In this document: piece after piece, positions 3,375 through 37,414 of the stretch
How the letters are laid out: the number at the start of each line of letters is the position of its first letter
Position numbering within the stretch: position 1 is the stretch's first letter
Source of the DNA: Planctomycetota bacterium
Lineage (GTDB): Bacteria > Planctomycetota > Phycisphaerae > WQYP01
Assembly (NCBI GenBank): GCA_021810145.1
Contig: JAJZJL010000008.1
Coordinates: 1-60,664, forward strand
Reading direction: 5' to 3'
DNA length: 60,664 bases
Made by a program: the position numbers and the translations under genes
The notes under the pieces: model-generated
What the model was told of the DNA's origin: nothing
The model's database searches: none
What the model saw: only the letters and a program-made list of their open reading frames with translations

Positions 3375-3944
3375 TCAAGTTGTTTCATTGTTCGCTTGCG
3401 CTCCCGCGTTGTCAACCGGTTCGACCAAGTGGAATGTATCGGTATCGCGGCTGTAGGAAAAAATTTCAGCGTATCGGCCCCAGTTCAGCAGGGCATCATA
3501 TTGTGGCTTGGGGCGTTCCGTCGGCAGCACGCGGCCGATTTCCTCCAGCATGTGCTTGCGCGAAGTGGAATGTTCCGCCTGCTGCAGGAGAAAATTCCGA
3601 AAATGAACAAACAGGGGCAACTTGGCAATTTGCCCGGCAATAAGCTTCTTCTTCTGATTCACCGGCAGTTCGATAATCTGTTTGCCCAGCGGCTGCATGA
3701 CCAGATCACCACCGGGGGTATCGACAAAGCCCAGTACTTCCGCCGCTTTAATAATCAACAGCAGTTCACCGAAGCTGTCTCGCAATTCGCGGGCGAGTTT
3801 GTAAATATCTTCTTTGCCGCCATGGTCATCAAGAATTTCAAGCAATCCCAGCACTTTGCTTAAACCGGTGGGAGGCACGGGAACAACGGGAGCCTCGCCG
3901 CTTTGCGGGGGATCAACGGGTTGGGGATTTTCTGAATTTGACAT
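3375..3944 (-). CDS. AAA-associated domain protein, split-off C-terminal part of an ABC ATPase
   Basis: A 189-residue protein matching the AAA-associated C-terminal domain found at the end of nitrate/sulfonate-type ABC ATPases. After a proline-rich N-terminus (residues 1-30) comes the helical core: VLGLLEILDDHGGKEDIYKLARELR, read in pieces as GLLEILDDHGGKEDI and LGFVDTPGGDLVMQPLG, then KKKLIAGQIAKLPLF and a WGRYAEIFSY tail. In many bacteria this domain is fused to the ATPase in one protein of about 440 residues; here it is a separate gene starting 31 bases after the ATPase stop. It probably binds the ATPase and senses substrate or regulates it (inference). ATG 3944 has GGAG nine bases upstream; a GTG at 3959 is the alternative. 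Confidence 0.8.
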   Translation of the reverse strand: MSNSENPQPVDPPQSGEAPVVPVPPTGLSKVLGLLEILDDHGGKEDIYKLARELRDSFGELLLIIKAAEVLGFVDTPGGDLVMQPLGKQIIELPVNQKKKLIAGQIAKLPLFVHFRNFLLQQAEHSTSRKHMLEEIGRVLPTERPKPQYDALLNWGRYAEIFSYSRDTDTFHLVEPVDNAGAQANNETT

Positions 3945-3975
3945 ACGGTTATTCTCCACAGAATCTTCGGACGGG

Positions 3976-4728
3976 TCAAATTTCCGCCATCATGCTGAAT
4001 ATTGAGTCCACGTAACGGGTAAAGTCTTCAGAGTTTTTCTGCCGGGGTCGCGGCAAGGCTATGTCGAGATCCATCACCACATGTCCGGGCCGGCCGCCAA
4101 TAAGCACCACGCGATCAGCCAATTCCACCGCTTCTTCAATATTATGCGTAACCATGATGACGGTGCTGACCGCCAGGTTCGGATCGGCCCAGATATCAAG
4201 CAATTCCTCACGCAGGTTAATACTGGTTAACGGGTCCAGAGCACTGAATGGTTCGTCCATCAGCAGCAGTTCCGGTTCTACAGCCATGGCCCTGGCGAGG
4301 CCCACGCGCTGTTTCATGCCGCCGGAGAGTTCCCGCGGATAGGCTCCTTCAAAACCGTCGAGGCCCACCTTGTCAATATAAAACGCCGCGCGCTTTTCCG
4401 CGGTATTCCGATCAATGCGTCGTGCCTCCAGCGCCAGAAGAATATTCTGAGTAACGGTCATCCAGGGCAGAAGCGCAAAATTCTGAAAAACCATGCCGCA
4501 CTGTAAATTAATACCCGTCAGAGGCTTATCCTTAAAATAGACTTTACCCCTGCTGGGCGGCATTAATCCGTTAATCAGTCGCAATGTGGTTGATTTTCCG
4601 CATCCGGACTGCCCGACGAGGCAGATAAACTGCCCGGAATCAACGCTTAAATTGACGTCTTCCAGAATGGTGGCGGCGGGGCCATCGGTCTGGTACACCT
4701 TGGTGACGTTATCGAGTTTCAGTAACAT
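3976..4728 (-). CDS. ABC transporter ATP-binding protein, nitrate/sulfonate/taurine type
   Basis: A 250-residue ABC ATPase. It has Walker A GQSGCGKSTT (about residues 39-48), the Q-loop in MVFQNFALLPWM, the ABC signature LSGGMKQRVGLARA, Walker B LLLMDEPFSALDP and the H-loop VTHNIEEAVELADR. The sequence is of the SsuB/TauB/NrtD class that powers importers of sulfonates, nitrate or related anions. Its permease partner is 4.95 kb away at 9680-11470, displaced by the inserted islet; a 40-codon relic of the permease end lies 68 bases upstream of this start. It would normally be translated after the permease in one operon. The substrate cannot be read from the sequence because no binding-protein gene is seen. 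Confidence 0.92.
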   Translation of the reverse strand: MLLKLDNVTKVYQTDGPAATILEDVNLSVDSGQFICLVGQSGCGKSTTLRLINGLMPPSRGKVYFKDKPLTGINLQCGMVFQNFALLPWMTVTQNILLALEARRIDRNTAEKRAAFYIDKVGLDGFEGAYPRELSGGMKQRVGLARAMAVEPELLLMDEPFSALDPLTSINLREELLDIWADPNLAVSTVIMVTHNIEEAVELADRVVLIGGRPGHVVMDLDIALPRPRQKNSEDFTRYVDSIFSMMAEI

Positions 4729-4769
4729 ACATTCGATCTCTTATGCGGTGTTTCTGTGCCGGTTTATAT

Positions 4770-4916
4770 CGTGCGGCACCGACGGTATCCCATCGTTAAT
4801 AATCCAGACGGAATCGGTCCGCCGCCCAGGCCTGCAACGGCTTCCACAGCAGCCGATTCAATACCACGATCAGGACAATCAAACAACTTACCCCGGCAAA
4901 AAGCAATGCCTGCGCC
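4770..4916. repeat. Left copy of 147-base direct repeat (permease 3' end)
   Basis: Bases 4770-4916 match 9654-9800 with a single mismatch over 147 bases. The copy includes the last 40 codons and the stop of the two-domain ABC permease plus 26 bases after it, all on the minus strand. The intact copy is the right one. The duplication brackets a 4737-base insertion that splits the ABC operon. In the left copy the permease reading frame has no start, so the codons at 4796-4916 are a pseudogene fragment. Confidence 0.93.
4796..4916 (-). pseudogene. 3' fragment of the ABC permease gene
   Basis: Forty codons identical or nearly so to the C-terminus of the permease at 9680-11470, ending LQAWAADRFRLDY and the same stop codon. 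The fragment keeps the ancestral junction to the downstream ATPase gene (68 bases between stop and the ATG at 4728), which shows the original order permease-ATPase-AAA-associated protein. It is cut off on its 5' side by the inserted DNA. Confidence 0.88.
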
Positions 4917-5034
4917 GCCGAAAGCAGCCACGTATAGACCGGGATGCCGTGCCCGGCGTGCCTTTCTCATGGGATCCCTTTCTGTAAGGCCTCAACCAAT
5001 GCAACCATGTTAGTGCTTAATTGTATAAAGAAAT

Positions 5035-5057
5035 ATTGTCAAATGTTGTGGATTGCC
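5035..5057. repeat. Partial copy of a dispersed repeat also found near 38.5 and 39.0 kb
   Basis: The 23 bases here differ at two positions from the start of the 94-base repeats at 38486 and 38987. The match ends a few bases before the IS-like element at 5062, which suggests the IS inserted into or next to a repeat copy. Confidence 0.5.
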
Positions 5058-5061
5058 ATAG

Positions 5062-5911
5062 GAGCCTGTTTGAAAAGTTTATAGAAGATCTTGAAGAACG
5101 CCGATAACGATAAGACGAAAAGGAATTCACAACCTACGGACCTCGGGAATGATCAGTGGCTAATAATCGCGTCGCGGATTCCACCGCAGAAGCACGGCGG
5201 CCGCCCGCGCAGGGCGGACATGCGGCGGGTGGTCAACGGCCTGTTGTACTAAGGCCGCACCGGCTGCCAGTGGCGGGCGTTGCCCGACGACTTTCCACCG
5301 TGGAGCGCCGTGGCCTACTACTTTTACCGCTTTCGTGACGATGGAACTTGGCAGTTGCTTCATGACCGGCTGCGAGAGCGGGTTCGGGTGGCTGCTGACA
5401 TGGCGTCCCCGCCCTCGGCGGCGATCACGGACAGTCAGTCGGCCAAGACGACGGAAAAAAGGGGGCCTGCTGCGGGTACGGTGCGGGTAAAAAGATCAAC
5501 GGGCGTAAGCGTCATCTGGTTGTCGAGACGTTGGGAATGATCCTGGCGGTGGTGGTGCATGCGGGCAGCGTGCACGATCGCGACGGAGCCAAAGGGACGC
5601 TGCGCAGGCTCATGGGGCGGTTTTCCCATCTGAGCTTGATCTGGGCCGACGGACAACTGGTTGTCTGGGCCGCGTGGCTGGCAAACTGGACGCTGAAGAT
5701 TGGCAGGCGTTCGGATGATGCCAAAGGCTTTAAGGTGTTGCCCAAGTGTTGGATGGTGGAACGCACCTTCGGCTGGCTGGGACGTTACCGTCGACTCTGC
5801 AAAGGTTACGAGGAGCAAACCACCGGCAGCGAAACTTGGATTTATCCGGCAATGATTAATTTGATGCCCCGTCGATTGGCACCAGGGTGACGATTCCTCT
5901 CACACAGGCTC
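5062..5911 (+). mobile_element. Decayed IS5-family element (IS427-like) of about 850 bases
   Basis: The left end GAGCCTGTTTGAAAAG (5062-5077) and the right end CCTCTCACACAGGCTC (5896-5911) are imperfect terminal inverted repeats, 13 of 16 positions. Between them lies a broken DDE transposase gene. The size fits the IS427 group of the IS5 family. The right end falls inside another transposase remnant, so this element seems to have inserted into an older one. No clear target duplication is visible. The same terminal sequence occurs on the MITE-like repeat at 27374-27535. Confidence 0.75.
5149..5890 (+). pseudogene. IS5-family transposase, broken by a stop and a frameshift
   Basis: Read across frames this matches an IS427-type transposase. 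The N-terminal domain gives HGGRPRRADMRRVVNGLLY, an in-frame TAA, then GRTGCQWRALPDDFPPWSAV and YYFYRFRDDGTW. The catalytic part gives ITDSQSAKTTEK, a frame change near 5460, then GYGAGKKINGRKRHLVVETL, ILAVVVHAG, HDRDGAKG, the IWADGQ strand and the C-terminal ERTFGWLGRYRRLCKGYE. The first half carries a stop codon and the two halves are in different frames, so no active enzyme can be made. No upstream start with a good ribosome site was found. Confidence 0.82.
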
Positions 5912-6327
5912 TGAGGCATGAAGAGTCGCCCGCCCTATGAAGCCCCAGGTCCGCCACCACCGATCCCAGCTTCTTGAGCAACTGTTCAAACATCCCCCGT
6001 AGAAGCGCCAGCTGGGTCGGCTCGCCCAGAACTTCCTCAAAGCGACTGATATTCCAAGGCTTGGGAACATCCGCCACATTGGCAATGAAAGCCAATTCCC
6101 GCAGGGCCGCATTACGCCGCATCTCCGCCAGACAGCTTTCCATCGTGGCATGCCGCAGGAAATGACGCAGCAGATTCCCGCATCGGGTGCATGCTGGTGT
6201 AGAATTCCGAAAAGATTTTTTTCAAGGGTGCTTGTTGCAGTGCCATGGCCCATACCCCCCGCGGAATGTGGGGTAACGCTGCTTTCCGCATCCACCGCTT
6301 GTATGCTTCCATTCGCAACGACATCAA
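5912..6327 (-). pseudogene. Remnant of a second transposase, frameshifted and truncated by the IS5-like element
   Basis: On the minus strand one frame gives an N-terminal piece (MEAYKRWMRKAALPHIPRG onward from about 6327), and a second frame from about 6190 gives LLRHFLRHATMESCLAEMRR, NAALRELAFIANVADVPKPW, NISRFEEVLG and LGSVVADLGLHRAGDSS. This is the N-terminal region seen in transposases of the IS4/IS1182-like sort, ending just before the catalytic AGDS segment. A frameshift lies near a run of T at 6213-6220, and the reading is cut off at 5911 where the IS5-like element begins. Family placement is approximate. Confidence 0.6.
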
Positions 6328-6360
6328 TAACGCAACCGGCTCGTTATAAGGTGACCAGAA

Positions 6361-6389
6361 TTGGCAACTGTCCCGGGCCGTGGTATACT
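6361..6389 (+). promoter_or_regulatory. Sigma-70-type promoter for the NRAMP operon
   Basis: TTGGCA (6361-6366) and TATACT (6384-6389) are separated by exactly 17 bases, a near-consensus housekeeping promoter. Transcription would start near 6396, leaving an untranslated leader of about 205 bases before the transporter start at 6603. Confidence 0.65.
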
Positions 6390-6471
6390 CTTTTTTCGGC
6401 CAGGCTCGTCGCGTGCCTACCCGATTGAAGGGCCGTAAGTGGTTGCTTTTTTGGAGCCAGATCTGAAAATA

Positions 6472-6503
6472 AGCTCGTCCATTTATTTCTCGGACGGGCT
6501 TTT
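6472..6503 (+). terminator. Hairpin plus T-run in the NRAMP leader (possible attenuator)
   Basis: AGCTCGTCC (6472-6480) pairs with GGACGGGCT (6492-6500), a nine-pair stem with one G-U pair and an 11-base loop, followed by TTTT. It lies between the promoter at 6361 and the transporter gene, so it would stop transcription early unless an alternative fold forms. I could not match the leader to a known metal riboswitch. Confidence 0.5.
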
Positions 6504-6602
6504 AGAGATGGTAGACGGGTTATCAGAGCGCTGTGCCCGCGGCTCTACGGCATCGCGGTACAAGCGGTGTGGCGGCCGCGGCAGGACTAGTACAGGTGGT
6601 CT

Positions 6603-8012
6603 ATGTATTTGGTGAACAAGGCGATCCACAGGAGCGGCCGAATTCGCCGTGCCGTGTTTCTGTTCCTCGCCGTTCTGGGACCCGGGATCATCACCATGGT
6701 CGCGGACAATGACGCCGGCGGCATTTCCACCTACGTTCAGACGGGGGCGAAGACCGGCTTCAACCTGCTCTGGGCCTTCATCATTCTGCTGCCCATGGCC
6801 TATTACGTCCAGGAAATGACGGTACGGCTCGGGGCGGTGACCAAGCGGGGCCACGCGGAGGCGATTTTCGACTCGTTCGGCCGATTTTGGGGATGTTTCT
6901 CCATTTTTGATCTCATGGTCGTCAACTGGCTCACGCTCGTCACCGAGTACATCGGCATGACCCAGGCGATGCAACTATTCGACATCCCCAATTGGATCAC
7001 CTACGCTGGGGTGACACTGCTGTTGCTGGGAATCGTCATCACTGGAAAATACTGGACCTTTGAGAAACTCACTCTTTTCTTTTGCGTTTTCAATCTCGTT
7101 TACATTCCTGCGGCCGTCTGGGCCATGGAAACCGGGAACGTAAAGGCTGGGTGGCTGGCGGTTGGGCGGGGGTTCTGGAGCCCGCACCTTATCGGGGTCG
7201 TGCCGCCCTTGGCGATGGTCACCCTGATCATGGCAAATATCGGCACGACCATTACGCCGTGGCAGATTTTTTTCCAGCAGTCGGCCGTAGTGGACAAAGG
7301 CATGGACCTCCGCGACATCAGGATGGGCAAGCTGGACACGTTTATGGGGTCGCTGGTGACCTGCGTGGTGGCGGCGTTCATCATCGTGGCGACGGCGGCG
7401 GTCTTTTATTTCAATCCGGACACCACTAGCCAAGCGTGGAAGCACGTTGATCCGAGCTACGCCAGTTGGCGCGACGTCGATTCTGCCGCCCACGCCGCGC
7501 AGGCAATGCCGCTGGTGATGCACGGTACGGCTTGGGGGCGTTCGTCGGAGGTGCTTTTTGCCATCGGCCTGTTCGACGCGGGCCTGCTCGGCGCGCTGTG
7601 CATCAGCCTCTCCACGAGTTGGGCCATGGGCGAGGTGTTTGGCTGGGCTCACTCGCTTAACAAAACCGTCCGCGAAGCGCCGTGGTTTTACCTGTTTTAT
7701 TTCGCGGTCTTGGCCTCCGCCGGTGCCGTCTGCCTGATCTCAAGCGATGCCGTACAGAATGCGATCACCATCTTCGTGCAAGTGGTCGCGGTGACCCTTT
7801 TACCTTCGTCGTTGTTTTTCCTGATCCTGATCCTCAACGATCCACAAGTGATGGGAGAGCACGTCAACACCCGCTGGCAGAATATCGCCAATTGGTCGAT
7901 CGCGATTTTCGTGGTGTTCATATCCTCAGTTTACGGTGCGACGGAGCTTTTTCCAGAGGTGCTGACGCCGGGTTTCTGGCGGCATGCTAACGCCTGGTTG
8001 CACATACCCTGA
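6603..8012 (+). CDS. NRAMP-family divalent metal transporter, divergent (possibly Mg2+ type)
   Basis: A 469-residue membrane protein with about eleven hydrophobic helices. The family TM1 region reads GPGIITMVADNDAGG (about residues 26-40), where classical MntH has DPGN, and the TM6 region reads NIGTTITPWQIFFQQSA (about residues 213-229), where classical members have an MPH motif. The metal-binding methionine of TM6 is therefore a threonine. Known: loss of this methionine marks NRAMP-related Mg2+ transporters. Inferred: this protein may carry Mg2+ or another hard ion rather than Mn2+ or Fe2+. It is followed 14 bases later by an MgtE_N/CBS protein, which fits magnesium sensing. The ATG at 6603 has AGG six bases upstream. 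The islet looks more GC-rich at third codon positions than its surroundings. Confidence 0.85.
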   Translation: MYLVNKAIHRSGRIRRAVFLFLAVLGPGIITMVADNDAGGISTYVQTGAKTGFNLLWAFIILLPMAYYVQEMTVRLGAVTKRGHAEAIFDSFGRFWGCFSIFDLMVVNWLTLVTEYIGMTQAMQLFDIPNWITYAGVTLLLLGIVITGKYWTFEKLTLFFCVFNLVYIPAAVWAMETGNVKAGWLAVGRGFWSPHLIGVVPPLAMVTLIMANIGTTITPWQIFFQQSAVVDKGMDLRDIRMGKLDTFMGSLVTCVVAAFIIVATAAVFYFNPDTTSQAWKHVDPSYASWRDVDSAAHAAQAMPLVMHGTAWGRSSEVLFAIGLFDAGLLGALCISLSTSWAMGEVFGWAHSLNKTVREAPWFYLFYFAVLASAGAVCLISSDAVQNAITIFVQVVAVTLLPSSLFFLILILNDPQVMGEHVNTRWQNIANWSIAIFVVFISSVYGATELFPEVLTPGFWRHANAWLHIP

Positions 8013-8026
8013 ATGCGAGACGTCCG

Positions 8027-9367
8027 ATGCCCACCGAATCCTCTCATCCCAGCCCCAATCGTGTCGCCGCGGCCAACCTGCCCGGCGGAAATGCGCCAAG
8101 CAAAGATTACCAGGTCTACTTCTTTTCCGAGCTTAAGGATCGCCCGATCTGCGCCGGTAAGATCAAGGATCGCATCGGCCGACTGTCCGACCTCATCTTC
8201 AAAATGAGCGACCCGTACCCCGAGGCCGTCGGGCTGCTTATCGATCATGGCTGGGGCCGGCCGGCGGAATTGGTGCCATGGTCGCACCTCCTCCGAATCG
8301 AGGACGACGCCATATTCGTCCGCACGCCGGAAAATTCCGCCCCCGCCACCCCGCGTGGCGGAGGGGGCTTTCCTCGCTATGAATATCAGACAGGCTGGAT
8401 CCTTTTGGATCAGCACCTGATGGGCCAGACCATCCTAGACATGGATGGCCGCCGCACCGAAGTGGTCAACGATGTGCACCTGCTGTTTTCCCATGCCCGT
8501 ATGATCCTGCTGCATGTGGACCTTTCCTTCAACGGGTTCCTGCGGCGGTGGGGGCTGTACCGGTTTTTCCGCCAGCGGGACCAGTTCGTCAACTGGAAGT
8601 ACGTCCAGCCACTTTCCGTGGCCGACACCAGCACGGAAACCGTAACACTCTCGATCACCCGAAAGCAGATCCGCGAGGTTCCGCCCGAGGATTTGGCCGA
8701 TGCCCTGGAGGCCCTCACGGGCGAAGAGCAGAAGGCCCTTTTCTCGGCCTTGGAGCCGCAGACTGCGGCTGGGGCGCTCGTTGAGGCCGAACCTCGAACC
8801 CAGCGGCAGATAATCGCCGAGCTACGACAGGAACGTGCCCGCAAGGTGCTGTCGGAAATGTCGGTTCCACAAATCGCAGAACTTTTTTCCGCCCTGCCGC
8901 ACGAAGATAGTTCCAAGATGCTCCGACTCTTGGAGCCAGACGAAGCGTCGCGCATTCGCACGGTGCTTAGGGAGCGGAAAACCCTAGCCCGGATGTTGAT
9001 AGGCGGTGAGTACTTGGCGTGGCCGCCCGAGTCTCGCGTCGGTGAAGTACTTGCGGCCATCCGCGCCTCGGGCAAAACGCACGGCGCGATTTCCTACATT
9101 TACGTGATCAATCCCGCCGACGGCGTCCTGCAGGGGGTGGTCGACCTGCGCGAGCTGGTCCTGGCGCCGGACGACAAATCCTTGACGGATTGCATGACTT
9201 CTCCGGTTGTCACAGCCGACGGTGACGATACCCGCGAGGACTTGGCCGAGTTGTTCGCTAAATACCATTTCCGTATGGTGCCGGTGGTAGACCGCCAGAA
9301 CCGTATGCTCGGCGTGATTCGTTACAACGACATCATGAAGGGATTTATCACTCGCGCTCGCACCTAG
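8027..9367 (+). CDS. MgtE N-terminal/CBS domain protein without the channel domain
   Basis: A 446-residue soluble protein. The N-terminal ~180 residues hold a PRC-barrel-like segment (KDRIGRLSDLIFKMSD, EAVGLLIDHGWGRP) that appears twice. The middle region (about 215-320) is the MgtE intracellular N domain, a helical superhelix with PPEDLADALEAL, EEQKALFSAL and PQIAELFSALPHEDSSKML. The C-terminal ~120 residues carry paired CBS domains, ending ELFAKYHFRMVPVVDRQNRM and LGVIRYNDIM. MgtE's five-helix Mg2+ pore is absent. In MgtE these cytosolic domains sense Mg2+, so here they probably gate or regulate the adjacent NRAMP transporter (inference). It lies 14 bases downstream of the transporter and is surely co-transcribed. 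Confidence 0.85.
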   Translation: MPTESSHPSPNRVAAANLPGGNAPSKDYQVYFFSELKDRPICAGKIKDRIGRLSDLIFKMSDPYPEAVGLLIDHGWGRPAELVPWSHLLRIEDDAIFVRTPENSAPATPRGGGGFPRYEYQTGWILLDQHLMGQTILDMDGRRTEVVNDVHLLFSHARMILLHVDLSFNGFLRRWGLYRFFRQRDQFVNWKYVQPLSVADTSTETVTLSITRKQIREVPPEDLADALEALTGEEQKALFSALEPQTAAGALVEAEPRTQRQIIAELRQERARKVLSEMSVPQIAELFSALPHEDSSKMLRLLEPDEASRIRTVLRERKTLARMLIGGEYLAWPPESRVGEVLAAIRASGKTHGAISYIYVINPADGVLQGVVDLRELVLAPDDKSLTDCMTSPVVTADGDDTREDLAELFAKYHFRMVPVVDRQNRMLGVIRYNDIMKGFITRART

Positions 9368-9426
9368 AATTCGCCGGGAGGGCCCGCGTTTCTTCGCTGC
9401 TGGCCACATAACTGGGAGTATACCTT

Positions 9427-9633
9427 ATGCCCCGCATGAAAATGACCCCCATGGTGAAAATCGCCCTCGTGGTGCTGAGGGTCTATCTCTTGGTACTGCT
9501 GACGCTCATTCTTATCAGCTTCGTGCGAATGCTGCGCACCGGCGGTACCTCGCCCACGGCCAATGCCCCGGCGGCGGTGAAACCGCAGCCCTCTACCCGG
9601 CTCCACGCCGGTTCCTCGGTATCGGATCCGTAA
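9427..9633 (+). CDS. Small single-pass membrane protein
   Basis: A 68-residue protein with a basic N-terminus, one strong hydrophobic helix (about residues 10-30, VKIALVVLRVYLLVLLTLIL) and a polar proline/alanine-rich tail. GGGAG lies eight bases before the ATG, a good ribosome site, and it starts 60 bases after the MgtE_N/CBS gene on the same strand. It may be an accessory subunit of the transporter. The gene ends 21 bases before the right 147-base repeat, so it belongs to the inserted islet. No family recognised. Confidence 0.55.
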   Translation: MPRMKMTPMVKIALVVLRVYLLVLLTLILISFVRMLRTGGTSPTANAPAAVKPQPSTRLHAGSSVSDP

Positions 9634-9653
9634 TGCTCGCTGATGATTAATTC

Positions 9654-9800
9654 CGTGCGGCACCGACGGTATCCCATCGTTAATAATCCAGACGGAATCG
9701 GTCCGCCGCCCAGGCTTGCAACGGCTTCCACAGCAGCCGATTCAATACCACGATCAGGACAATCAAACAACTTACCCCGGCAAAAAGCAATGCCTGCGCC
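9654..9800. repeat. Right copy of 147-base direct repeat (intact permease 3' end)
   Basis: This is the original copy, continuous with the permease gene. It pairs with 4770-4916 and differs at one base (CAGGCTTGC here, CAGGCCTGC on the left). The islet 4917-9653 lies between the two copies. Confidence 0.93.
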
Positions 9801-11470
9801 TGTGCCGTCGGCAGCGGCTTGCCGGAAGGCGGCAGGGCGGAACCGGACGCGACATTCAGCAGCCAGCCAATTCCCGGCAGCCTGTAGGCGTGTCCGGCGT
9901 AGGTGATGCATTCGCTGAAAATAAGCGTATTCCAACCGCCGCCAAAGGCCGTGATCGTTCCGGTAAACAGGGAAGGAAGAATTGCCGGGATTACCAGATT
10001 TCTCCATTGCTGCCAGCGGGATAATCCCATGGCATTGCACACTTCCTTAAGGTCTCCGGGAATTTTAGCGATGCCGCCAAGCATGTTAAACAGCACGTAC
10101 CATTGCACACCGTTCATCAGCAGCACCATTCCGGCGGCTTCCACTCCCCAATAACCCAATTGCAGATGTTGCACAAAAATACTGATAACAATAAAAGTCA
10201 GGGCAATGGGTGGCATGCTGGCCATGGTCTGCGAAATGGAGGATAAAAACCGAAACGTTCGCGGCCGGGTTCTGGCCCATAATACCGCCGGTACAACCCA
10301 CAGCATGGAAAGCAGATAGGCAATGAGAATCCGAAGCAATGAAAAGCCGATGTAAGCGGGGATTCTTTCGGCCAGCGGCGGCAGGAGGTGATTGTGAAAA
10401 ATATTAAACGTATAAAAACCGCCGCCGATGGCAATGGCGAAAATCAGCAGCCAGCCGGCAAGCCGCTGGGTATTGGACCATAAGCGGGTAATCAGGGCGG
10501 GTACTTCAATGCGCGGCAGCACGAGCTTTTTAGCCGATCCGCGGGTGTATCGGATCACCAGATTAACACCGTTATTAAGTGGAAAAACAATGTGGTTGAC
10601 AAACATCCGCGGCAGCCAGCCGCGCTGATACCAGCCCAATATTCCGGTATTGCCCCGGGTAATGGAAGATACCGCCACCTCATACCGGAATCGCTCCGCC
10701 CACACGGCCAGGGGCCGCCAGACGAAAAATTCCATCATCAGAATAATGGCCAGCAGCACCGCCACACCGCAGAGATTTAATTCCAGCGGATGCGTTCTGG
10801 AATTGGCCGCCTGCTGCAGAAAACTGCCGATCCCCGGCAGCGTTACATTTTGATTGTTAACGGAAAGAATTTCGCATGCGGTCAGGGCGAACCAGCCTGC
10901 CGCCCAACTGACAATACTGTTATAAAGCAGCCCCGGCACGCACACCGGCAATGTGATGGTGAAAAAACGCTGCGAGCCGCGAATGCCGAAACTCTCGGCA
11001 CATTCGATGGTTTCCCGCGGCATCATGATCAGGCTTTCATAAACGCTGAAGGCCATGTTCCACGACATGCCGGTAAATATCAGCACGACGGCGGCAATTT
11101 CAAAGCCCAGCCGACCGCCGCCAAAAAGCCATACCGCCACCGCCAGAGCCGCGGGGAAAAAACTCACAATGGGAATCGACTGCAAAATATCCAGTATCGG
11201 CAGGATCAGGCGGCGGGCGCGAAGGTTGTTGTATGCATAAACGCCCAGACTCATGGCAAAAATCAGCGACAGGGTATATGCCTCAACCATGCGCGAAAAC
11301 GACCATGCGGCATCTGCCGGCAACTGCCACACCCGGGCCGCCAGATGTGACTTGGCTTGTGTGAAAGGGTGCAGCATTCCCGCGAGAATGGCGGCGGCAA
11401 GCAGCACCAGGGTGGAGCCAATCCAGTAACCGGCGGCAAATTTGCGTGGTTGTGCTATTTCATCCGCCAT
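9680..11470 (-). CDS. Two-domain ABC transporter permease (nitrate/sulfonate type)
   Basis: A 596-residue membrane protein made of two binding-protein-dependent permease domains in tandem. The first spans about residues 70-270 with its cytoplasmic loop at ECAESFGIRGSQRFFTITLP, and the second about 360-570 with EVCNAMGLSRWQQWRNLVIP. Both are the EAA-type loops that dock on the ATPase. Each half has about six helices, so one polypeptide provides both halves of the pore. Such fused permeases pair with ATPases that carry an AAA-associated domain, as found at 3375-4728. The operon order permease-ATPase-AAA protein is broken after this gene by the islet at 4917-9653. It starts at ATG 11470. No substrate-binding protein is nearby, so the substrate is open. 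Confidence 0.9.
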   Translation of the reverse strand: MADEIAQPRKFAAGYWIGSTLVLLAAAILAGMLHPFTQAKSHLAARVWQLPADAAWSFSRMVEAYTLSLIFAMSLGVYAYNNLRARRLILPILDILQSIPIVSFFPAALAVAVWLFGGGRLGFEIAAVVLIFTGMSWNMAFSVYESLIMMPRETIECAESFGIRGSQRFFTITLPVCVPGLLYNSIVSWAAGWFALTACEILSVNNQNVTLPGIGSFLQQAANSRTHPLELNLCGVAVLLAIILMMEFFVWRPLAVWAERFRYEVAVSSITRGNTGILGWYQRGWLPRMFVNHIVFPLNNGVNLVIRYTRGSAKKLVLPRIEVPALITRLWSNTQRLAGWLLIFAIAIGGGFYTFNIFHNHLLPPLAERIPAYIGFSLLRILIAYLLSMLWVVPAVLWARTRPRTFRFLSSISQTMASMPPIALTFIVISIFVQHLQLGYWGVEAAGMVLLMNGVQWYVLFNMLGGIAKIPGDLKEVCNAMGLSRWQQWRNLVIPAILPSLFTGTITAFGGGWNTLIFSECITYAGHAYRLPGIGWLLNVASGSALPPSGKPLPTAQAQALLFAGVSCLIVLIVVLNRLLWKPLQAWAADRFRLDY

Positions 11471-12353: not shown

Positions 12354-13757
12354 CTATCCCACCGCCCGTACGGCACGTTGCTGCGTATGGTGCGGTCGAT
12401 CTTCAACGGGTTCCTCCGCCACTTCCTGGGCTGATGGCGGAAGCGGTGGCGGTTCATGGCCGGCCGCGATTTCTTCAGCCACCCGATCAAGTCCGTTGAG
12501 AATATCGCGTGCGGTTCGATATTTAACATTTTGTTCATCGGGCGGGCGCAGAATTTCATCGGTCAGCCGTTTAAGATGCCGGGCTTCAAGGCTCTTGGGA
12601 TTAAAGTGAATCAATCCTTTGAAGTCCGGATTGGAGTGCGGCTTATTCATCTGAACGGCCAGGTAGAACAAATCGACAGCTTTATCCACTTTGTGCAACC
12701 CCCCGCGCAGTACATCGGAGGTTACCAGGCCGTTTTCGCTCATGTGATAGAGCATGCGCTGAATCTGGGAGGTTTTCATCATCTCTTCAAAAAGCGTATG
12801 CAGCAGCGAATTATCCGAGAATGTCTCCCCCACGCGCACCGCCGAGCCAAAGTCAATAAAGCCGACGCCGTTTTCGGTAACCACAAAATTATCCAGGCGC
12901 AAGTCCAGATGGATCACGCCGATTTTTTCATGCAGCACCGCGAGAAGTTCACAGGACTGTCTGGCAAAATCGATCTGCGAGAGGCCTTCGCCGCCATTGC
13001 GCATCCAGTTCATATACAGCGTGCGGACGAAGCCTTTGGAATCATGCTCCACGCCCAGACAGCGTGGCACGCGGTCGCAGAATGGTTTGGGCAGGTCGCG
13101 ATGGAGAATTTTGAGCATCGCGGCTTCACGCGTGAGAAAAACGGGAAATATCTTTTCGGTAAATTTCATGGCGCGGCGGCGGATGTCATCCAGTGAAGCA
13201 TCCGGGAATTTCGACCGCAGTCGCGAAACCACCCGATCCACCGTGGGCACTTGTTTAACCACAACATATTTTTCCTGCTCCATGTCTTTGCGGCCCAGGT
13301 GAACATGGTAGGTGAAGCGTTCCGTGGATTCACCGGGTTTTAACAGATGCACCTTGCGGGCTACAAGATAATAAACCGGCTTTCCCATGCCCGGAATGGA
13401 CAAGCCGAGAATGGGCGTGCGAATGCTCTGCGGCTGACCTTCCAGAATGAAGCCTTCCCAGCGGGTAAATCGCTGGGCGATTTCATCGATCAGCAGTTGG
13501 TTGGGGGAAATCATAATCGCTCGACCGCCCCAACGCAGATTGGGAAACACATCTTCCGGAGAAAGGGCGGTTTCCGCCGGCAGAAACAGATGGTAGGGCA
13601 AACCGCGGGCCGTGTTTTCCATTCCATGCGCCAGGCTTCCACGGTATTCCGTATCGCGCGCAAAGACCTTGTTCTGGATGAGCTTCACGGCTGATGATTT
13701 ATCCGCCAGAGCCTGCAGGCGGGCCAGCGAAGCTTTTCGGTCATTTTTCAAAGCCAT
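12354..13757 (-). CDS. Protein kinase-like protein (eukaryotic-type fold)
   Basis: A 467-residue protein with a C-terminal kinase-like domain. Visible elements are the nucleotide-binding lysine region YVVVKQVPTVDRVV (about residue 170), the catalytic loop GVIHLDLRLDNFVV (about 285) with Asp and Asn in place, and the metal-binding IDFGSA. The N-terminal ~160 residues are not a known domain to me; the C-terminus is a proline/glutamate-rich tail. It may be a Ser/Thr kinase or a relative of lipopolysaccharide/RIO-type kinases, since the glycine-rich loop is not obvious. No membrane segment is seen. It starts at ATG 13757 and overlaps a possible small gene upstream. Confidence 0.75.
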   Translation of the reverse strand: MALKNDRKASLARLQALADKSSAVKLIQNKVFARDTEYRGSLAHGMENTARGLPYHLFLPAETALSPEDVFPNLRWGGRAIMISPNQLLIDEIAQRFTRWEGFILEGQPQSIRTPILGLSIPGMGKPVYYLVARKVHLLKPGESTERFTYHVHLGRKDMEQEKYVVVKQVPTVDRVVSRLRSKFPDASLDDIRRRAMKFTEKIFPVFLTREAAMLKILHRDLPKPFCDRVPRCLGVEHDSKGFVRTLYMNWMRNGGEGLSQIDFARQSCELLAVLHEKIGVIHLDLRLDNFVVTENGVGFIDFGSAVRVGETFSDNSLLHTLFEEMMKTSQIQRMLYHMSENGLVTSDVLRGGLHKVDKAVDLFYLAVQMNKPHSNPDFKGLIHFNPKSLEARHLKRLTDEILRPPDEQNVKYRTARDILNGLDRVAEEIAAGHEPPPLPPSAQEVAEEPVEDRPHHTQQRAVRAVG

Positions 13758-22714: not shown

Positions 22715-23285
22715 ATAACACTTCCTGTTCATGAAAAAAATCAACTTCAATGGTATTGCAGCTTAAAATGTATCAGGCTCAGTTGCGGGCTTTTACTTGA
22801 GCTGCGCTCCACCGTGCGCACCATTATTGGAGAAATCGGATACCACACAACTGCGCTGTCATGATACAAACTGTGTTCCTCGTTCGGGAGGTAACTCGGG
22901 CGTCTGCATGTTAGTGAAATCGGTGGGATCGTGCAACCCGCGTGCCGTCGCGGTTTGTTGTCGGGAAGTAGATATGTCACGTTTGGGTGTTGATGTTTTA
23001 ACCGTGTGAATCGAAGAATCAATAATCTCGGTTACCGATCAGGTTCGTATGGATGCAAGGACGCAGATCCGAAGCGTATTCCGGAATATGTTGAAAATCC
23101 AGGACGCCGCAGGCGGCCCTTTGCCGCCCCAAGGCACCCCCGTTGGAGGTTCCAAACAGGCTTTTTGCGTCGCCTCCGCTGATTCCGCCTGCCGTCCGCA
23201 AAGCTGTGGTCGCAGGGTGACATTTCTAATTTCGATTGGTCGGGCGGCATTTTTGATGGTCACAACGCTCCGTGAAACCGGTGCT
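22715..23285. other. Spacer with a MITE-like fragment
   Basis: About 570 bases without a convincing gene. It should contain the promoter of the minus-strand hydrolase. The repeat at 23049-23161 is the only structure I recognise here. Confidence 0.4.
23049..23161 (+). repeat. Left-truncated copy of the MITE-like repeat
   Basis: These 113 bases align with 27421-27533 of the MITE-like element downstream of uvrA (ATGGATGCAAGGACGCAGAT start, TTCCAAACAGGC end), with scattered differences and one base of length difference. The right terminal repeat CCAAACAGGC is present but the left one is missing, so this is a truncated copy. Open frames across it are an artefact of the repeat. Confidence 0.72.
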
Positions 23286-27373: not shown

Positions 27374-27535
27374 GAGCCTGTTTGAAAAGTCCGATGCGGG
27401 TGCATTGGCTTGGCAAATGGATGGATGCAAGAACGCAGATCCGAAGCATATTCTGGAATATGTTGAGGATCCATCACGCCACAGACGGCCGTTTGCCGCC
27501 CCAAGGCGCTCCCGGCGGAGTTTCCAAACAGGCGC
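27374..27535 (+). mobile_element. MITE-like element with IS5-type terminal repeats
   Basis: A 162-base element starting GAGCCTGTTTGAAAAG (27374-27389) and ending GTTTCCAAACAGGCGC (27520-27535), whose ends are inverted repeats at 13 of 16 positions. The left end is identical over 16 bases to that of the IS5-like element at 5062, so that transposase may have moved it. It begins one base after the uvrA stop. A truncated relative lies at 23049-23161. No transposase is encoded. It ends 60 bases before the direct repeat of the next island. Confidence 0.72.
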
Positions 27536-32069: not shown

Positions 32070-32460
32070 ATCCCGGCGCTGCGGCGCACCCTCGGCCTGG
32101 TGCCTCGGCGGGATTTCGCGGGGCTGATGCGGAGCATAACTGCGGCGAACTGCGCTCGCCCCCGCTCAATCCCGGCGCTGCGGCGCACTGCCGAGGTGTC
32201 GGCACGGGATTTCGCGGGGCTGATGAGGAGCGTAAGTGCATCGAGCATCGCTCGCTCCCGCTCAATCCCGGCGCTGCGGCGCACTGCCGAGGTGTCGGCA
32301 CGGGATTTCTCGGGGCTGATGCGGAGCATAACTGCGGCGAGCTGCGCTCGCTCCCGCTCAACCCCGGCGCTGCGGCGCTCAGCCGCGCTGGGCGCGGCAC
32401 GGGATTTCGCGGGGTCGATGCGAAGCATAACTGCGGCGAGCTGCGCTCGCCCCCGTTCAA
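32070..32460. repeat. Four-unit minisatellite of about 96 bases, in frame
   Basis: Four units of 96-99 bases, each starting CCCGGCGCTGCGGCGC and containing GGGATTTCGCGGGGCTGATG and GGAGCATAACTGCGGCGA-type words. Because the unit is a multiple of three, several frames on both strands stay open across the whole array; one plus frame reads NPGAAAHCRGVGTGFRGAD repeatedly and joins directly to the RHS tip at 32461. The sequence upstream (31690-32069) is non-coding in character. It is a tandem repeat, not a CRISPR array: there are no unique spacers. Confidence 0.85.
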
Positions 32461-33031
32461 TATCAACGGTGCCAACACGTATCAGTTTGTGATGAGCAAC
32501 CCGGTGGGGAGTGTGGATCCGTGGGGAACGCAGGTGTACGGCGTGCACCCGTACATCTCAAGCCCGCTTGAGCCGCTGGCCGGGCCTGGGACAAACGGCG
32601 GGGAGATCGCCGCTGGACTTTGGAATTTCGGGTTGGGGCTGGGTGAGGCGGCTGTCGGCTTTACCGATGCGGAGACAGGTGTGGGCTTCGTGGTGGGCGT
32701 GGACGGGGTGCTCCGGGGCAGCAACGGCCTGCGCGAGATGTGGAATGGCCTCGGTTTCGGTGGCCACTTGAGCAACCCGTTGCCGCATTCAGTGCTCGCT
32801 GCCACCGGGCTTCCGCCGTGGGCACGAGATTTGGTCGGCGCGTGGGACGATTGGAACCCGGACACCGCGATGAAGGCCATGAAGGAGGCTGACGATCTCA
32901 GTAAACTGCTGGCCCGTGATCTTGCCGCATTTTTGGCGCATGCCCGGAACCTTTTTCCATCCTTTACCTGCCCGGGGCCCTACGAAATTCGCAAGCCCGC
33001 GCCAGGCGAGATAGTTACTCTCTACGCCTAG
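32461..33031 (+). pseudogene. Orphan RHS tip with a C-terminal domain (CT1)
   Basis: The first 67 bases match 37039-37105 with two differences and encode the conserved end of an RHS core, ANTYQFVMSNPVGSVDPWG. Everything before it is minisatellite, so the RHS core is missing. After the tip comes a ~165-residue region: glycine-rich LWNFGLGLGEAAVGFTDAET, then LPPWARDLVGAWDDWNPDTA and a helical tail. This resembles pre-toxin/toxin C-termini of polymorphic RHS proteins, but I do not recognise an active site. No start codon or signal peptide belongs to it; the frame is open back to 31727 through the repeats. It may be a reserve cassette for recombination. Confidence 0.6.
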
Positions 33032-33069
33032 CGGGCGACCATTGAAAGAAAAAGGGGTTTGTCTTGCAG

Positions 33070-33258
33070 ATGAAGGATTTAGTGTTCGTTTTTCTTGCGG
33101 GACTCTTTTTTCTGTCGCGCGGCTACAACATCTGGCCGAAAAGAACGGTCCTCGCCTGCGGGCCAGACAGGAAAGCGCGGCTGTTGAGGTTCGGCGGATA
33201 CTGGCTCCTGGCTATGTCTATCCTGGGTATGTTCCTCCGTATTCTTGGGGTTAGATAA
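33070..33258 (+). CDS. Small membrane protein, candidate immunity protein of CT1
   Basis: A 62-residue protein with two hydrophobic helices (MKDLVFVFLAGLFFLSR and LLRFGGYWLLAMSILGMFLR) joined by a basic loop (WPKRTVLACGPDRKAR). It begins 38 bases after the RHS tip stop, the usual place of an immunity gene. AAGGGG lies upstream of ATG 33070 at 12 bases, or at six bases from a TTG at 33064. Immunity function is inferred only from position; a two-helix protein would fit a membrane-acting toxin. Confidence 0.5.
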   Translation: MKDLVFVFLAGLFFLSRGYNIWPKRTVLACGPDRKARLLRFGGYWLLAMSILGMFLRILGVR

Positions 33259-33501
33259 CGTGGGCCCCGGGGTAGGGAGGTGGCCAGGTAAAGCGTGCGG
33301 TGTTCAAGTAAAGTGGCCCAGTAGATTTCGGGAGGACAGCAGTTGTAGTAGCGGCGCTTCGCCGAGCGAAACCGGGTCGTGGTTAGTTAGTGGAAATGGA
33401 AACGCCTTTAATGGTCGTTGCACCGTGGTTGATGTGGCGTAATACGGGTGGTGCCCTGAAGCCGGGGAAGTTACAATCACAACTGCCCAGGAAACACAGC
33501 T
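33259..33501. other. Spacer between RHS cassettes
   Basis: A 243-base stretch with no gene that I can support. It separates the CT1 cassette from the next RHS module. Confidence 0.35.
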
Positions 33502-34806
33502 GTGGATTATGGCATGGTCGCAACAGATGAAAAAATTTGGCAAACCAGGCTCGGCGGAAAACACCGCCGGGCGGGTGCCGCCGCATGCAGCGCACTGGAA
33601 AAATCCGTGGGCTCGTTTTCGCGAGCCTTCACCCGTGACCAGCCTATTGGCATACGCGGAAGCAACCTCGGCGACGTAGCCGATCAAAGCCTGAGCCTCG
33701 ACATTGGTTATGCACTGTTGAGGCAGGAGCCGAAATCCCGATTGTCCGAAGGAGCGGCGTTTCGGGAGACGCGCTATACCTCGAACGGTTCAACCCAAAC
33801 CGAAACGGCCAATGCGCAGAACCAGATTACTTCCATCAGTGGCAGCACGGCACCCACCTACGACGCCAATGGAAATATGACCACCGACCAAGCCGGCAAC
33901 ACGTATACCTACAACGCGTGGAACCAGTTGGTGGAGGTCAAGAATGCCGGCGGGGCGGTGATTGTTCAATATTCCTACAATGCTCTGGGGCAGCGAACCA
34001 GCGAAAGCTACCCCGTTGCGGCCGCCGGCATCCCGGCCGGGACGGTCAAATACCTTTATTACAGCGCTTCATCCATTCCGCAGGTCATTGAAGAACGCTG
34101 GAACGGCACGGCCTCAAACGATGTGCAATACCAGTATGTCTGGTCGGCAAGCTATGTCAATGCGATGATCCTGCGCGACACATACAGCGGCGGCACGCTG
34201 CAGGGCAACGATCGCATCTACACCGCATACGATGTGAACTACAACGTCACGTCACTCGTCGGCTACAACAGCACCACTCAGTCATGGGGCGTGGTCGAAC
34301 GGTTCGCGTATTCACCATACGGCACGGTTACCGATCTTGCTCCGGGGTGGTTCTCCCAATCCGACCAGCTCTATTGGCAATACATGTACCAAGGCGGAAG
34401 ACATGACCCCGTCACGGGCTTGTACCATTTTGATCACCGGGAATACAGTGCAAGTCTAGGCACATGGACCTCGCAGGATCCCCTCGGGTATACTTATGGT
34501 CCGGATGTATACGAATTCGAAGGCGGTAGCCCCATTGATAACCTCGATTGGCTGGGCGAGGGCCACAGAAAAAAGGGCGATCTGAATAAGCACCAGCACG
34601 GACAGAACCACGGTAGAGGCAAGGCCGAAAATTTTAAGAGGCGCAATAAGCGGGGACGGGATGCGCAGGCAGGTGCCGACGGAAGAAGGCTGGGCGTAGC
34701 TAAGCAGATATGCAAATCGGCGGCAGAGGGGGCTGCGGCCGGTGCTACAACTGCAGTGATTGTAGAAGGTCTTATAATCATTATCGGCCTTCCAGTAGGC
34801 TTTTAG
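33502..34806 (+). CDS. Truncated YD-repeat/RHS protein with C-terminal domain CT2
   Basis: A 434-residue RHS module. From about residue 66 it carries YD-type repeats (TYDANGNMTTD, YTYNAWNQLVEV, YSYNALGQR) and the conserved core end HDPVTGLYHFDHREYSASLG, TWTSQDPLGY with SPIDNLDWLG near residue 350. The first ~65 residues come from unrelated DNA, so the RHS shell is far shorter than a full one and has no signal peptide. The ~80-residue C-terminus is strongly basic (HRKKGDLNKHQHGQNHGRGK) and ends in a hydrophobic segment (TTAVIVEGLIIIIGLPVGF). The toxin type is not recognised. A Sel1-repeat gene follows after 39 bases. Confidence 0.72.
   Translation: MDYGMVATDEKIWQTRLGGKHRRAGAAACSALEKSVGSFSRAFTRDQPIGIRGSNLGDVADQSLSLDIGYALLRQEPKSRLSEGAAFRETRYTSNGSTQTETANAQNQITSISGSTAPTYDANGNMTTDQAGNTYTYNAWNQLVEVKNAGGAVIVQYSYNALGQRTSESYPVAAAGIPAGTVKYLYYSASSIPQVIEERWNGTASNDVQYQYVWSASYVNAMILRDTYSGGTLQGNDRIYTAYDVNYNVTSLVGYNSTTQSWGVVERFAYSPYGTVTDLAPGWFSQSDQLYWQYMYQGGRHDPVTGLYHFDHREYSASLGTWTSQDPLGYTYGPDVYEFEGGSPIDNLDWLGEGHRKKGDLNKHQHGQNHGRGKAENFKRRNKRGRDAQAGADGRRLGVAKQICKSAAEGAAAGATTAVIVEGLIIIIGLPVGF
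33696..33879. repeat. 184-base block shared by two RHS modules (copy 1)
   Basis: Matches 36238-36421 with about three differences over 184 bases, far closer than the flanking RHS sequence. It encodes LDIGYALLRQEPKSRLSEGA and onward to the YDANGNM repeat. The stretch GYALLRQEPKSRLSEGAAFR does not look like YD-repeat sequence and may be an in-frame insertion. Confidence 0.85.
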
Positions 34807-34845
34807 CGGGGGCAGCAAAGATAAGCCCTCTTTAAGACAGTCGAA

Positions 34846-35742
34846 ATGCCGGACAATATGAAAAACACAGGGAACCGTCGAGTCGCCGAAGCTAAGGCCC
34901 ATAAAAAGAGAATGGGCTCATCTCTTCTTTTTAGGGACGCAGAAAACTTGTACTTCGGTACTGGTCGTAGGCGAAATCTGAATAAAGCGTTATCCCTGTA
35001 CCTGGCCGCTGCGAAACTTGGACATATTGCCGCGGCCCGCAACGCCGCCTGGATGCTCAGCACGGGCGACGGTGCATGCAGGTCCCCGAAGATATCCGCT
35101 GAACTTTTCCGGTTTGCGGCTGAACGCGGCGATTCATATTCCCAATATCGGTTAGGAATGGTTCTTCGCGACGGATGGGGGGTGCGGCGCAACCTGGCAG
35201 AGGCAGTTTCTTGGTTCCGGAAAGCCGCCGGTGGTAATGATCGCGACGCCATGCACGAATTGGGGTGGGCATATCTGCGCGGAAGGGGGATCGGACGTGA
35301 TATCCGAAAGGCATTTCATTGGTTCAGAGAGTCAGCCATAAATGGCGATCCGATTTCAATGTGCAACGTGGCCGACATGTATCTGTGGGGCGATGGCGTG
35401 CCCCGGAACCTCTCGAAAGCGTTTTATTGGTTCCGCGAAGGTGCGCGGAGTGGCGAGGTTCGCTCAATGTACGAACTTGGCGTGTGTTACGAGCATGGCG
35501 AGAGCGTGCCCGCAAACCCGCGCCGGGCGGTGTATTGGTACCGCAAGGCCGCGCAGGCGGGGCACCGGCGAGCACAATACAATTTGGGCCTGTGCCTGCT
35601 CCGCGGGGAAGGGGTGAAACGGAATTTCGATGAAGCGGTTGCGTGGTTGCGAAAAGCCCGCTCGCAGGGCCACAAAGGGGCGGCCAAGGTGTTAAACCAC
35701 CTGCGTACGAGAGACGGGCGGAAACTCGAAATGAGCCGGTGA
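34846..35742 (+). CDS. Sel1-repeat protein next to an RHS C-terminus
   Basis: A 298-residue soluble protein built from about six or seven Sel1-like repeats of ~36 residues. Clear units include AAARNAAWMLSTGDG, SQYRLGMVLRDGWGVRRNLA, AMHELGWAYLRGRGIGRDI, SMYELGVCYEHGESVPANP and AQYNLGLCLLRGEGVKRNFD, each followed by an AxxWxRKAA-type helix. The fold is an alpha solenoid used for protein binding. No signal peptide is present. It follows the RHS-CT2 gene by 39 bases, so it could be the immunity or accessory protein (inference). Two possible ATG starts (34846, 34858) lack a clear ribosome site. Confidence 0.85.
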   Translation: MPDNMKNTGNRRVAEAKAHKKRMGSSLLFRDAENLYFGTGRRRNLNKALSLYLAAAKLGHIAAARNAAWMLSTGDGACRSPKISAELFRFAAERGDSYSQYRLGMVLRDGWGVRRNLAEAVSWFRKAAGGNDRDAMHELGWAYLRGRGIGRDIRKAFHWFRESAINGDPISMCNVADMYLWGDGVPRNLSKAFYWFREGARSGEVRSMYELGVCYEHGESVPANPRRAVYWYRKAAQAGHRRAQYNLGLCLLRGEGVKRNFDEAVAWLRKARSQGHKGAAKVLNHLRTRDGRKLEMSR

Positions 35743-35857
35743 CGGCCGTATCTGCGTGAGCCGTCTAATTGGGTGAAGGAACTGGAAAAATTGAGCGAGT
35801 GGCCACGGCAGGGTAAAATAGCGGACGACCAAATTTGAAAGACTGGACAGGCAGATA

Positions 35858-37414
35858 ATGGTAGCGGCGACGGAAAAAAATAGAAGTTCAAAACGCTTAT
35901 GCAAACACAGACACTTTGCCGGTTCTCCGCTATCCTCGGATTCCCCGGTGGTGGATCACTTCGTGTCTTTGAGCCTTCGTGGTGAAACCGGTTCCATTGG
36001 TTCCGGCGGGGATCAGTATATTGGCCTCGATCAGTTTGGCCGGATTGTGGATCAGAATTGGATTAACTCCGCCGCCGGCGTCAGCACCAACAATTTGACG
36101 TATTCTTACGATGCCAATTCCAATGTTACCGCCGAGAACAATTTGCTGGATACGGCCTATTCGCAAACGTTTACCTACGATCAGCTTAACCGCCTGGCAA
36201 GCAGCACACAGGGCGGGTCGGCCTACCAATCCTGGAACCTCGACATTGGTTATGCACTGTTGAGGCAGGAGCCGAAATCCCGATTGTCCGAAGGAGCGGC
36301 GTTTCGGGAGACGCGCTATACCTCGAACGGTTCAACCCAAACCGAAACGGCCAATGCGCAGAACCAGATTACATCCATCAGTGGCAGCACGGCACCCACC
36401 TACGATGCCAATGGCAATATGGCCTCCGGAAGTTTAACGTCGCAGCCTGCTGCGAGTGTCACCATGGTCTACAATGCGTGGAATCAACTCGTATCCGTGT
36501 CCAACGCCGCCGGGCAGGTCATCGCCCAATACACGTACAATGCGATGGGCTACCGTATCACGGAAACCTATCCGCAGGGTGGGAACGGCATCGCGGCGGG
36601 AACCGCGCTCAATATTTATTACGATTCGTCGTGGCAGGCTATTGAGACTCGCACCGATGGCACAGCCAGCAGCAACGTGACATCGCAAACAGTATGGTCC
36701 GCGGCGTATATCAACGCCGTTGTGCTCCAGGATACATATTCCGCCGGCGTGATTCAGCCGAACAGCCGGCTGTATTTCCTGCAGGACGCCAATTGGAATA
36801 CCACTGCAATTGCTGGCCTCAGCCGCAGCAGTTGGCAGGTGATACAAAGATATGTATATAGTCCCTACGGCACGGTTACCACTTTGGACGCCGGTTGGAT
36901 GCCACAGGGAACCCCACCCGGTATCAGCAATCTCTATCAAGGCATGACGCTCGACCCGGTGACCGGATTATATTATGCCCGCAACAGAAACTATTCACCG
37001 TCACTTGGCAGATTTATCTCCCAAGATCCCTTGCGATATATCAACGGTGCCAACACGTATCAGTTTGTGATGAGCAACCCGGTGGGAAATGTGGATCCGT
37101 GGGGATACAAATCGATTGGCCCGCTGCCGCCTGGCATTACCCCAGTTCCTAACCCGGCACCACCGGGAGGCCACACACCAACCCTCCCTGGCGGCCCCCC
37201 GAAGGGGAAGCCAGGCGGCAAAATCACGGGCACCGTTAATCCAACGAACGGGGCGTGGGGCCTCGGTGGAACGCTCTGGATACAGGTATGCCCGCTGCCG
37301 CCCTGGTTCCCGGCGCCGCCGGGCTCGGGGATCTGGGTCGGCGGGGCGGTATCAGGTGGCCCCCATGGCAAGCCCCATACGGGCGGCTTCATCGGGATTG
37401 GAGGTACGTTCTGA
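35858..37414 (+). CDS. YD-repeat/RHS protein with Gly/Pro-rich C-terminus (CT3)
   Basis: A 518-residue RHS module. The first ~50 residues look like read-through of repeat-type spacer. From about residue 55 YD repeats follow: GLDQFGRIVDQNWINSAAG, YSYDANSNVTAENN, FTYDQLNRLASS, TYDANGNMASG, MVYNAWNQLVSV and YTYNAMGYRITE. The core end is NLYQGMTLDPVTGLYYARNR with SLGRFISQDPLRY and NPVGNVDPWGY (near residue 415). The last ~100 residues are glycine/proline-rich (LPPGITPVPNPAPPGGHTP and onward to GGFIGIGGTF) with no recognised toxin motif. The stop overlaps the next start (TGATG). It may be a fragment of a larger ancestral RHS gene. Confidence 0.75.
   Translation: MVAATEKNRSSKRLCKHRHFAGSPLSSDSPVVDHFVSLSLRGETGSIGSGGDQYIGLDQFGRIVDQNWINSAAGVSTNNLTYSYDANSNVTAENNLLDTAYSQTFTYDQLNRLASSTQGGSAYQSWNLDIGYALLRQEPKSRLSEGAAFRETRYTSNGSTQTETANAQNQITSISGSTAPTYDANGNMASGSLTSQPAASVTMVYNAWNQLVSVSNAAGQVIAQYTYNAMGYRITETYPQGGNGIAAGTALNIYYDSSWQAIETRTDGTASSNVTSQTVWSAAYINAVVLQDTYSAGVIQPNSRLYFLQDANWNTTAIAGLSRSSWQVIQRYVYSPYGTVTTLDAGWMPQGTPPGISNLYQGMTLDPVTGLYYARNRNYSPSLGRFISQDPLRYINGANTYQFVMSNPVGNVDPWGYKSIGPLPPGITPVPNPAPPGGHTPTLPGGPPKGKPGGKITGTVNPTNGAWGLGGTLWIQVCPLPPWFPAPPGSGIWVGGAVSGGPHGKPHTGGFIGIGGTF
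36238..36421. repeat. 184-base block shared by two RHS modules (copy 2)
   Basis: Second copy of the block at 33696-33879. Here the block follows natural RHS sequence (SAYQSWN), while in copy 1 the DNA just upstream is unrelated. The near-identity suggests recent gene conversion or duplication. Confidence 0.85.
37039..37105. repeat. 67-base RHS tip repeat shared with 32461-32527
   Basis: Two differences over 67 bases. The identity stops just after the codons for VDPWG, the point where C-terminal domains change in RHS proteins. This is the sort of short homology that allows tip exchange. Confidence 0.82.

Follow-up and report, generated by a model that had tools for sequence, protein, structure and literature searches.

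A 4.7-kb islet between 147-nt direct repeats splits an ABC transporter operon in a Planctomycetota bacterium

In a 60,664-nucleotide (nt) stretch of Planctomycetota DNA (GenBank assembly GCA_021810145.1, contig JAJZJL010000008.1, positions 1 to 60,664 of the forward strand; hereafter the window), we found that an islet of 4,737 nt has been inserted between the permease and ATPase genes of an ATP-binding cassette (ABC) transporter operon, and that it lies between two direct copies of native sequence from the end of the permease gene, each 147 nt long. The intact permease ends inside the right copy, and the left copy leads into the native spacer, the ATPase gene and a gene for an AAA_assoc_C domain protein. 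Most of the right-hand part of the islet is a three-gene cassette encoding an NRAMP-fold transporter, a protein resembling the cytosolic sensor of MgtE and a small conserved protein. The event is real and tidy, and is mostly an ordinary gene acquisition.

Base-by-base alignment of the two copies reproduced the coordinates given in the initial annotation together with its single mismatch (C at 4832, T at 9716), which leaves identical stretches of 62 and 84 nt; by comparison, chance would be expected to give an exact repeat no longer than about 16 nt in 60 kb. Among the matches listed from about 460 kb of this genome and its relatives, the pair alone reaches at least 99% identity over more than 100 nt, and no third copy was found in the genome. 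The repeat had been described as the 3′ end of the permease gene, which holds for 121 nt including the stop codon but not for the remaining 26 nt, which are native spacer past the stop. On the coding strand, the noncoding left copy keeps the ancestral G at 4832, the base found in all aligned relatives, and the right copy carries a derived synonymous change within the intact permease (CAG to CAA, Gln585).

The empty site that the initial annotation proposed seeking in related genomes is present in four metagenome-assembled genomes (MAGs) of the same genus (L041, L043, L045 and L048), where the permease and ATPase genes are contiguous with a gap of 39-67 nt and the permease is 87-93% identical to that of the window in amino acid sequence. 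For L048, the closest congener, the spacer is likewise 67 nt long, and the window flanks, when joined in silico, match it over 1.83 kb at 86.5% identity with few gaps. Given the empty site in these four congeners, the sequence between the repeats was inserted, and the two repeat copies each consist of native sequence, which was duplicated with the insertion. The ancestral order of permease, ATPase and AAA protein, read earlier from the left junction, is supported by the family matches as well as by the contiguous genes of the same congeners, although the last of the three is an AAA_assoc_C-domain protein and not an AAA ATPase.

Some properties of the data would suit an assembly artefact, arising from mixed strains or a wrongly joined contig in a MAG built from short reads: the host assembly (G000) is fragmented into 200 contigs (4.47 Mb, 93.9% complete), and 147 nt is near a common short-read length. 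We regard such an error as very unlikely, since the copies differ by one base, share an exact run of only 84 nt and each stand in their proper native context, the left one with the ancestral base of the congeners and the correct native spacer.

Comparison with the same congeners also dates the event. The two copies differ at 1 of 147 positions, whereas 11-14 of the 121 positions in the coding part of the repeat differ between the window and the four congeners, and with the left copy being ancestral, the duplication is recent and postdates by far the separation of these species, barring gene conversion between the copies. The material between the copies is another matter. With a GC content of 58.3%, compared to 53.8-55.5% in the flanks, the islet consists, from the left, of unmatched DNA, the start of a repeat dispersed in the genus, an IS5-family transposase remnant, a DUF772-type fragment, a hairpin and the cassette (6603-9633), so that both of the decayed transposase remnants noted previously were found (Table 1). 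Because old, decayed content stands beside a young duplication, the insert was a mosaic on arrival, in which the genus repeat, a dead copy of IS5, the fragment of the second transposase and the cassette were already joined. The genome holds no second copy of the whole islet, and an Rfam search of 4600-9900 with E values up to 0.5 gave no match and no known riboswitch.

A 24-nt match near 5034 was considered as a terminal repeat of the IS5 element and rejected, as it is the start of the dispersed genus repeat. This repeat, which begins TATTGTCAAA..TTGTGGATTGCC, lies at 5034, 38485 and 38986 in the window and at 2813 and 6983 in L085, and is found in congeners too.

Table 1. Features of the split operon and the inserted islet, in window coordinates.
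Feature	Position	Strand	Basis or remark
AAA_assoc_C domain protein	3375..3959	-	family match
ABC ATPase, once directly after the permease, now 4.9 kb away	3976..4728	-	family match and relatives
Native permease-ATPase spacer, 67 nt, retained; same length as in L048	4729..4795	-	alignment
Left repeat copy	4770..4916	-	orphan 3′ end of the permease gene with its stop codon, then 26 nt of spacer
Inserted islet, 4,737 nt	4917..9653	.	missing at the site in L041, L043, L045 and L048
Start of dispersed genus repeat, interrupted by the IS5 remnant	5034..5057	+	sequence matches
IS5-family transposase remnant, two frames (frameshifted), N-terminal part unrecognisable	5062..5913	+	matches below cut-off
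Fragment like the N-terminal region of DUF772-type transposases	5903..6347	-	93% and 83% nt identity to contig C140 of the same genome
Terminator-like hairpin with U run, before the cassette	6472..6504	+	z = -3.8
NRAMP-fold transporter, 469 aa	6603..8012	+	family and structure-sequence match
PRC-MgtE_N-CBS protein, 446 aa, MgtE-type cytosolic sensor	8027..9367	+	domain matches
Small open reading frame, 68 aa, third cassette gene	9427..9633	+	conserved in most relatives' cassettes
Right repeat copy	9654..9800	-	functional permease 3′ end and 26 nt
Double-domain ABC permease (BPD_transp_1), 596 aa, intact	9680..11470	-	family match

For the cassette, which had been annotated as an NRAMP-MgtE_N pair, both families were matched and the conserved small open reading frame was added as a third member. 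The best solved relative of the transporter, and its closest solved structure by sequence, is EleNRMT (7qia, E 9e-52), which transports Mg2+ and Mn2+ (PMC8806188). The two have in common the NDAGG motif in helix 1, where Gly replaces Asn, and the absence of the binding-site Met from helix 6; at the residue positions taken from the same study, Thr also replaces Ala in helix 6 (GTTI), as in the EleNRMT alignment. The window transporter differs, however, in having Thr (ITP) at the former Met column where NRMT proteins have Ala (IAP in EleNRMT), for which reason we call it only NRMT-like, and in being partnered with a stand-alone MgtE_N-CBS protein. The best solved match of this partner is 2yvy, and it contains the MgtE_N and CBS domains of MgtE, but no MgtE transmembrane domain was detected in it and its score for the mgtE equivalog is 117 against a cut-off of 233. 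Judged from these similarities, the cassette probably gives uptake of Mg2+, and perhaps of Mn2+, governed by a detached MgtE-type sensor, with Mg2+ as the likelier substrate. An NRMT-like transporter encoded with a free-standing MgtE-type sensor offers a testable layout for the control of Mg2+.

The cassette also stands apart from its surroundings in composition and ancestry. GC at third codon positions is 0.74-0.77 in the cassette versus 0.57-0.64 in the operon. In the NRAMP tree, the window copy is sister to that of G020, from another genus (support 99/97), and it joins G020 in the sensor tree as well (86/89), while the cassette copies of the congeners form a 100/100 clade that excludes the window copy and within which two genera are interleaved. 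That the cassette belongs to a foreign lineage is well supported, and it is not the congeners' version. An origin of the islet from the cassette site at the operon's own AAA_assoc_C gene was rejected, the lineage being different and the orientation inverted. Cassettes of this kind occur in 13 of the 28 genomes of the family and in 10 of 369 other sampled genomes of the class. Farther afield, there is a likeness to the metal-resistance regions of conjugative plasmids (Citrobacter pPSV and Acidiphilium pACRY04) in the NRAMP-CBS pair of pPSV, where the gene for a homologous CBS protein (31%) comes after an NRAMP-like gene (51% amino acid identity), but these regions are distant, plasmid-borne and set among other neighbour genes. 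Among viral contigs, a single distant NRAMP relative (56%) turned up, while a 26-nt probe taken from the repeat at its spacer end matched nothing, and a PHROGs search gave no match.

As to how the islet entered, ordinary transposition by an insertion sequence (IS) is not supported, because the duplication is 147 nt long, the IS remnants are internal and decayed, and a working transposase is missing. The initial annotation had judged the duplication far too long for such transposition, and the borders agree with it: no IS or composite transposon was found at either one, the IS5 remnant starting some 145 nt in from the left border and the right border having no IS. No intact transposase was found in the islet, where the IS5 remnant is read in two frames below the cut-off and the second remnant is only a fragment, nor was a tyrosine or serine recombinase or an integrase found among the scanned open reading frames of the islet. 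Published work on long target duplications in bacteria offered no direct precedent.

We tentatively favour a single, recent recombinational or break-repair insertion of the pre-assembled mosaic, with target duplication and with no transposase or integrase involved. By such a route, a mosaic segment with the foreign three-gene cassette would have entered the permease-ATPase spacer once, and the doubling of the native DNA that lay between the break points would result from two breaks offset from one another or from a template switch going back 147 nt. The permease gene is completed by one copy and the other remains with the ATPase leader, so that no coding sequence was lost. The cassette faces opposite to the operon and has its own leader with the hairpin, and the insertion would cut the ATPase and AAA_assoc_C genes off the permease transcript. 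We infer a repair route in particular, and place it narrowly ahead of a single crossover, because it requires no pre-existing joint molecule.

Several points weigh against this preference. A donor copy of the islet, which would show any microhomology at the junctions, was not found. Ku (PF02735) was not detected in the 93.9% complete genome, with a control genome positive, which makes classical end-joining unlikely. The recency of the duplication depends on the absence of gene conversion between the copies. Homology-facilitated illegitimate recombination resembles the present case in that foreign genes are captured in one step, but such insertions usually delete recipient DNA (PMC3240628), whereas here there is duplication and no loss. 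The same process has been proposed for Vibrio type VI secretion system arrays, with remnants of displaced native genes downstream (PMC5361080).

The main rival, which we hold to be a serious but lesser possibility, is a Campbell-type single crossover, in which a DNA circle with the islet and a 147-nt permease end would have recombined with the chromosome through that end and left it on either side, the mismatch being a polymorphism of the donor. The homologous arm is directly duplicated, as this would require, and E. coli conjugation assays have given an integrated circle flanked by 109-950 bp direct duplications of a recipient gene (PMC3240628). The left part of the islet is made of sequence that the genus also has, which makes it plausible that the donor was of the same species or genus. 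However, the circle needs an earlier joining of this species' permease end to the islet, and no such circle or joint molecule was found in the genome or, with the 26-nt probe, in the viral contigs; in the E. coli cases the circle was a plasmid whose arm of homology was known, whereas here neither circle nor arm donor was found.

The duplication might instead have preceded the insertion, with a short or larger tandem duplication of the permease end first and the islet arriving later between the copies, or with a larger duplication subsequently trimmed. This genome has many direct repeats, and tandem duplications arise often, but a stepwise history needs an insertion exactly at the joint, or two to three events in a short time, and the cassette is inverted relative to its placement in L048 and L046; we consider it decidedly improbable.

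Integrative elements of the e14/icd type target the 3′ ends of genes and restore the gene. The islet is like them in that the 3′ end of the target gene is repeated at both borders and the gene is intact, and unlike them in that no integrase was found, the recipient's own gene end is doubled and relatives use other genes: the site is empty in the four congeners, with no reuse as an attachment site, and related cassettes lie elsewhere. Some of these do have repeats. In another genus, L113 (8197-14689) and L046 (7001-13770) have a related cassette behind AAA_assoc_C, and beyond it stands a further, diverged copy of the 3′ end of that gene and downstream DNA (158 nt at 83% and 62 nt at 81%), a right junction also seen in L073 and L078. 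A weak case is the congener L072, where the cassette lies between 42-nt copies (2209-2250 and 5769-5810, 93%) of the last codons of a cupredoxin gene. These arrangements, and a 229-nt 3′-end repeat around another insert on contig C20 of the same genome, would fit a site-specific or gene-3′-end-targeting mobile element of an undescribed type that left a long duplication. We nevertheless find such an element unlikely: no recombinase was found, and repeat lengths, targets and orientation vary. Flanking 3′-end repeats are missing at 17 of the 20 cassettes scanned. In L048, a diverged cassette interrupts AAA_assoc_C in its 3′ end, and no long repeat accompanies it. Cassettes that lie at different loci resemble each other in nucleotide sequence only up to the limits of the coding region, so no element ends are visible. 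The null distribution for flanking repeats, in which 17 draws reached 45 bits, was used only loosely; it is distorted by L081 and L085, loci picked for their repeats, from which all 15 of the top draws shown come. A family-wide, undescribed route duplicating 40-280 nt of a chromosomal gene's 3′ end and thereby leaving the target gene whole, with the window islet as its youngest case, L046 and L113 as old ones, and L072 and C20 as possible ones, is similarly doubtful; were duplicated 3′ ends to prove frequent at such cassettes, this would indicate a route of insertion beyond known transposases and integrases. In L073 and L078, an N-terminal fragment of the permease and the tail of AAA_assoc_C alone remain around the cassette, the ABC operon having decayed with the loss of most genes.

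Splitting of the operon presumably altered its expression. No promoter for the ATPase gene was demonstrated, and since promoter-like counts, like terminator-like ones, are near the shuffle expectation, none is claimed. Repeats of such length would be expected to let RecA delete the islet and so restore the operon. With an exact run of 84 nt, recombination between the two copies could plausibly remove the islet, so that the repeats would amount to a built-in way back. The window provides a young, clean case of operon splitting by foreign DNA in which the host gene is intact and the order of events is dated.

Other direct repeats were noted in the same genome. On contig C20 (L126), a 229-nt repeat (768-996 and 6351-6579, 93%) that includes a gene 3′ end encloses about 5.4 kb, where a GH2-family and a prepilin-like gene lie; it was considered as a second islet and rejected, the repeat being real but an empty site not found. 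On contig C30 (L127), a perfect 44-nt direct repeat (8310-8353 and 12954-12997) surrounds about 4.6 kb containing an RDD-family gene and a gene for a 1,306-aa beta-propeller-like protein, whose stop codon lies inside the repeat. Within the window, copies of a dispersed repeat (23049-23161 and 27421-27533; 113 nt, 87%) with more copies in the genome flank UvrA-like and PIN-domain genes, and the region 32109-37105, which resembles genes for RHS-type repeat proteins, contains several internal direct repeats, among them one of 68 nt and one of 194 nt, both at 97% identity.

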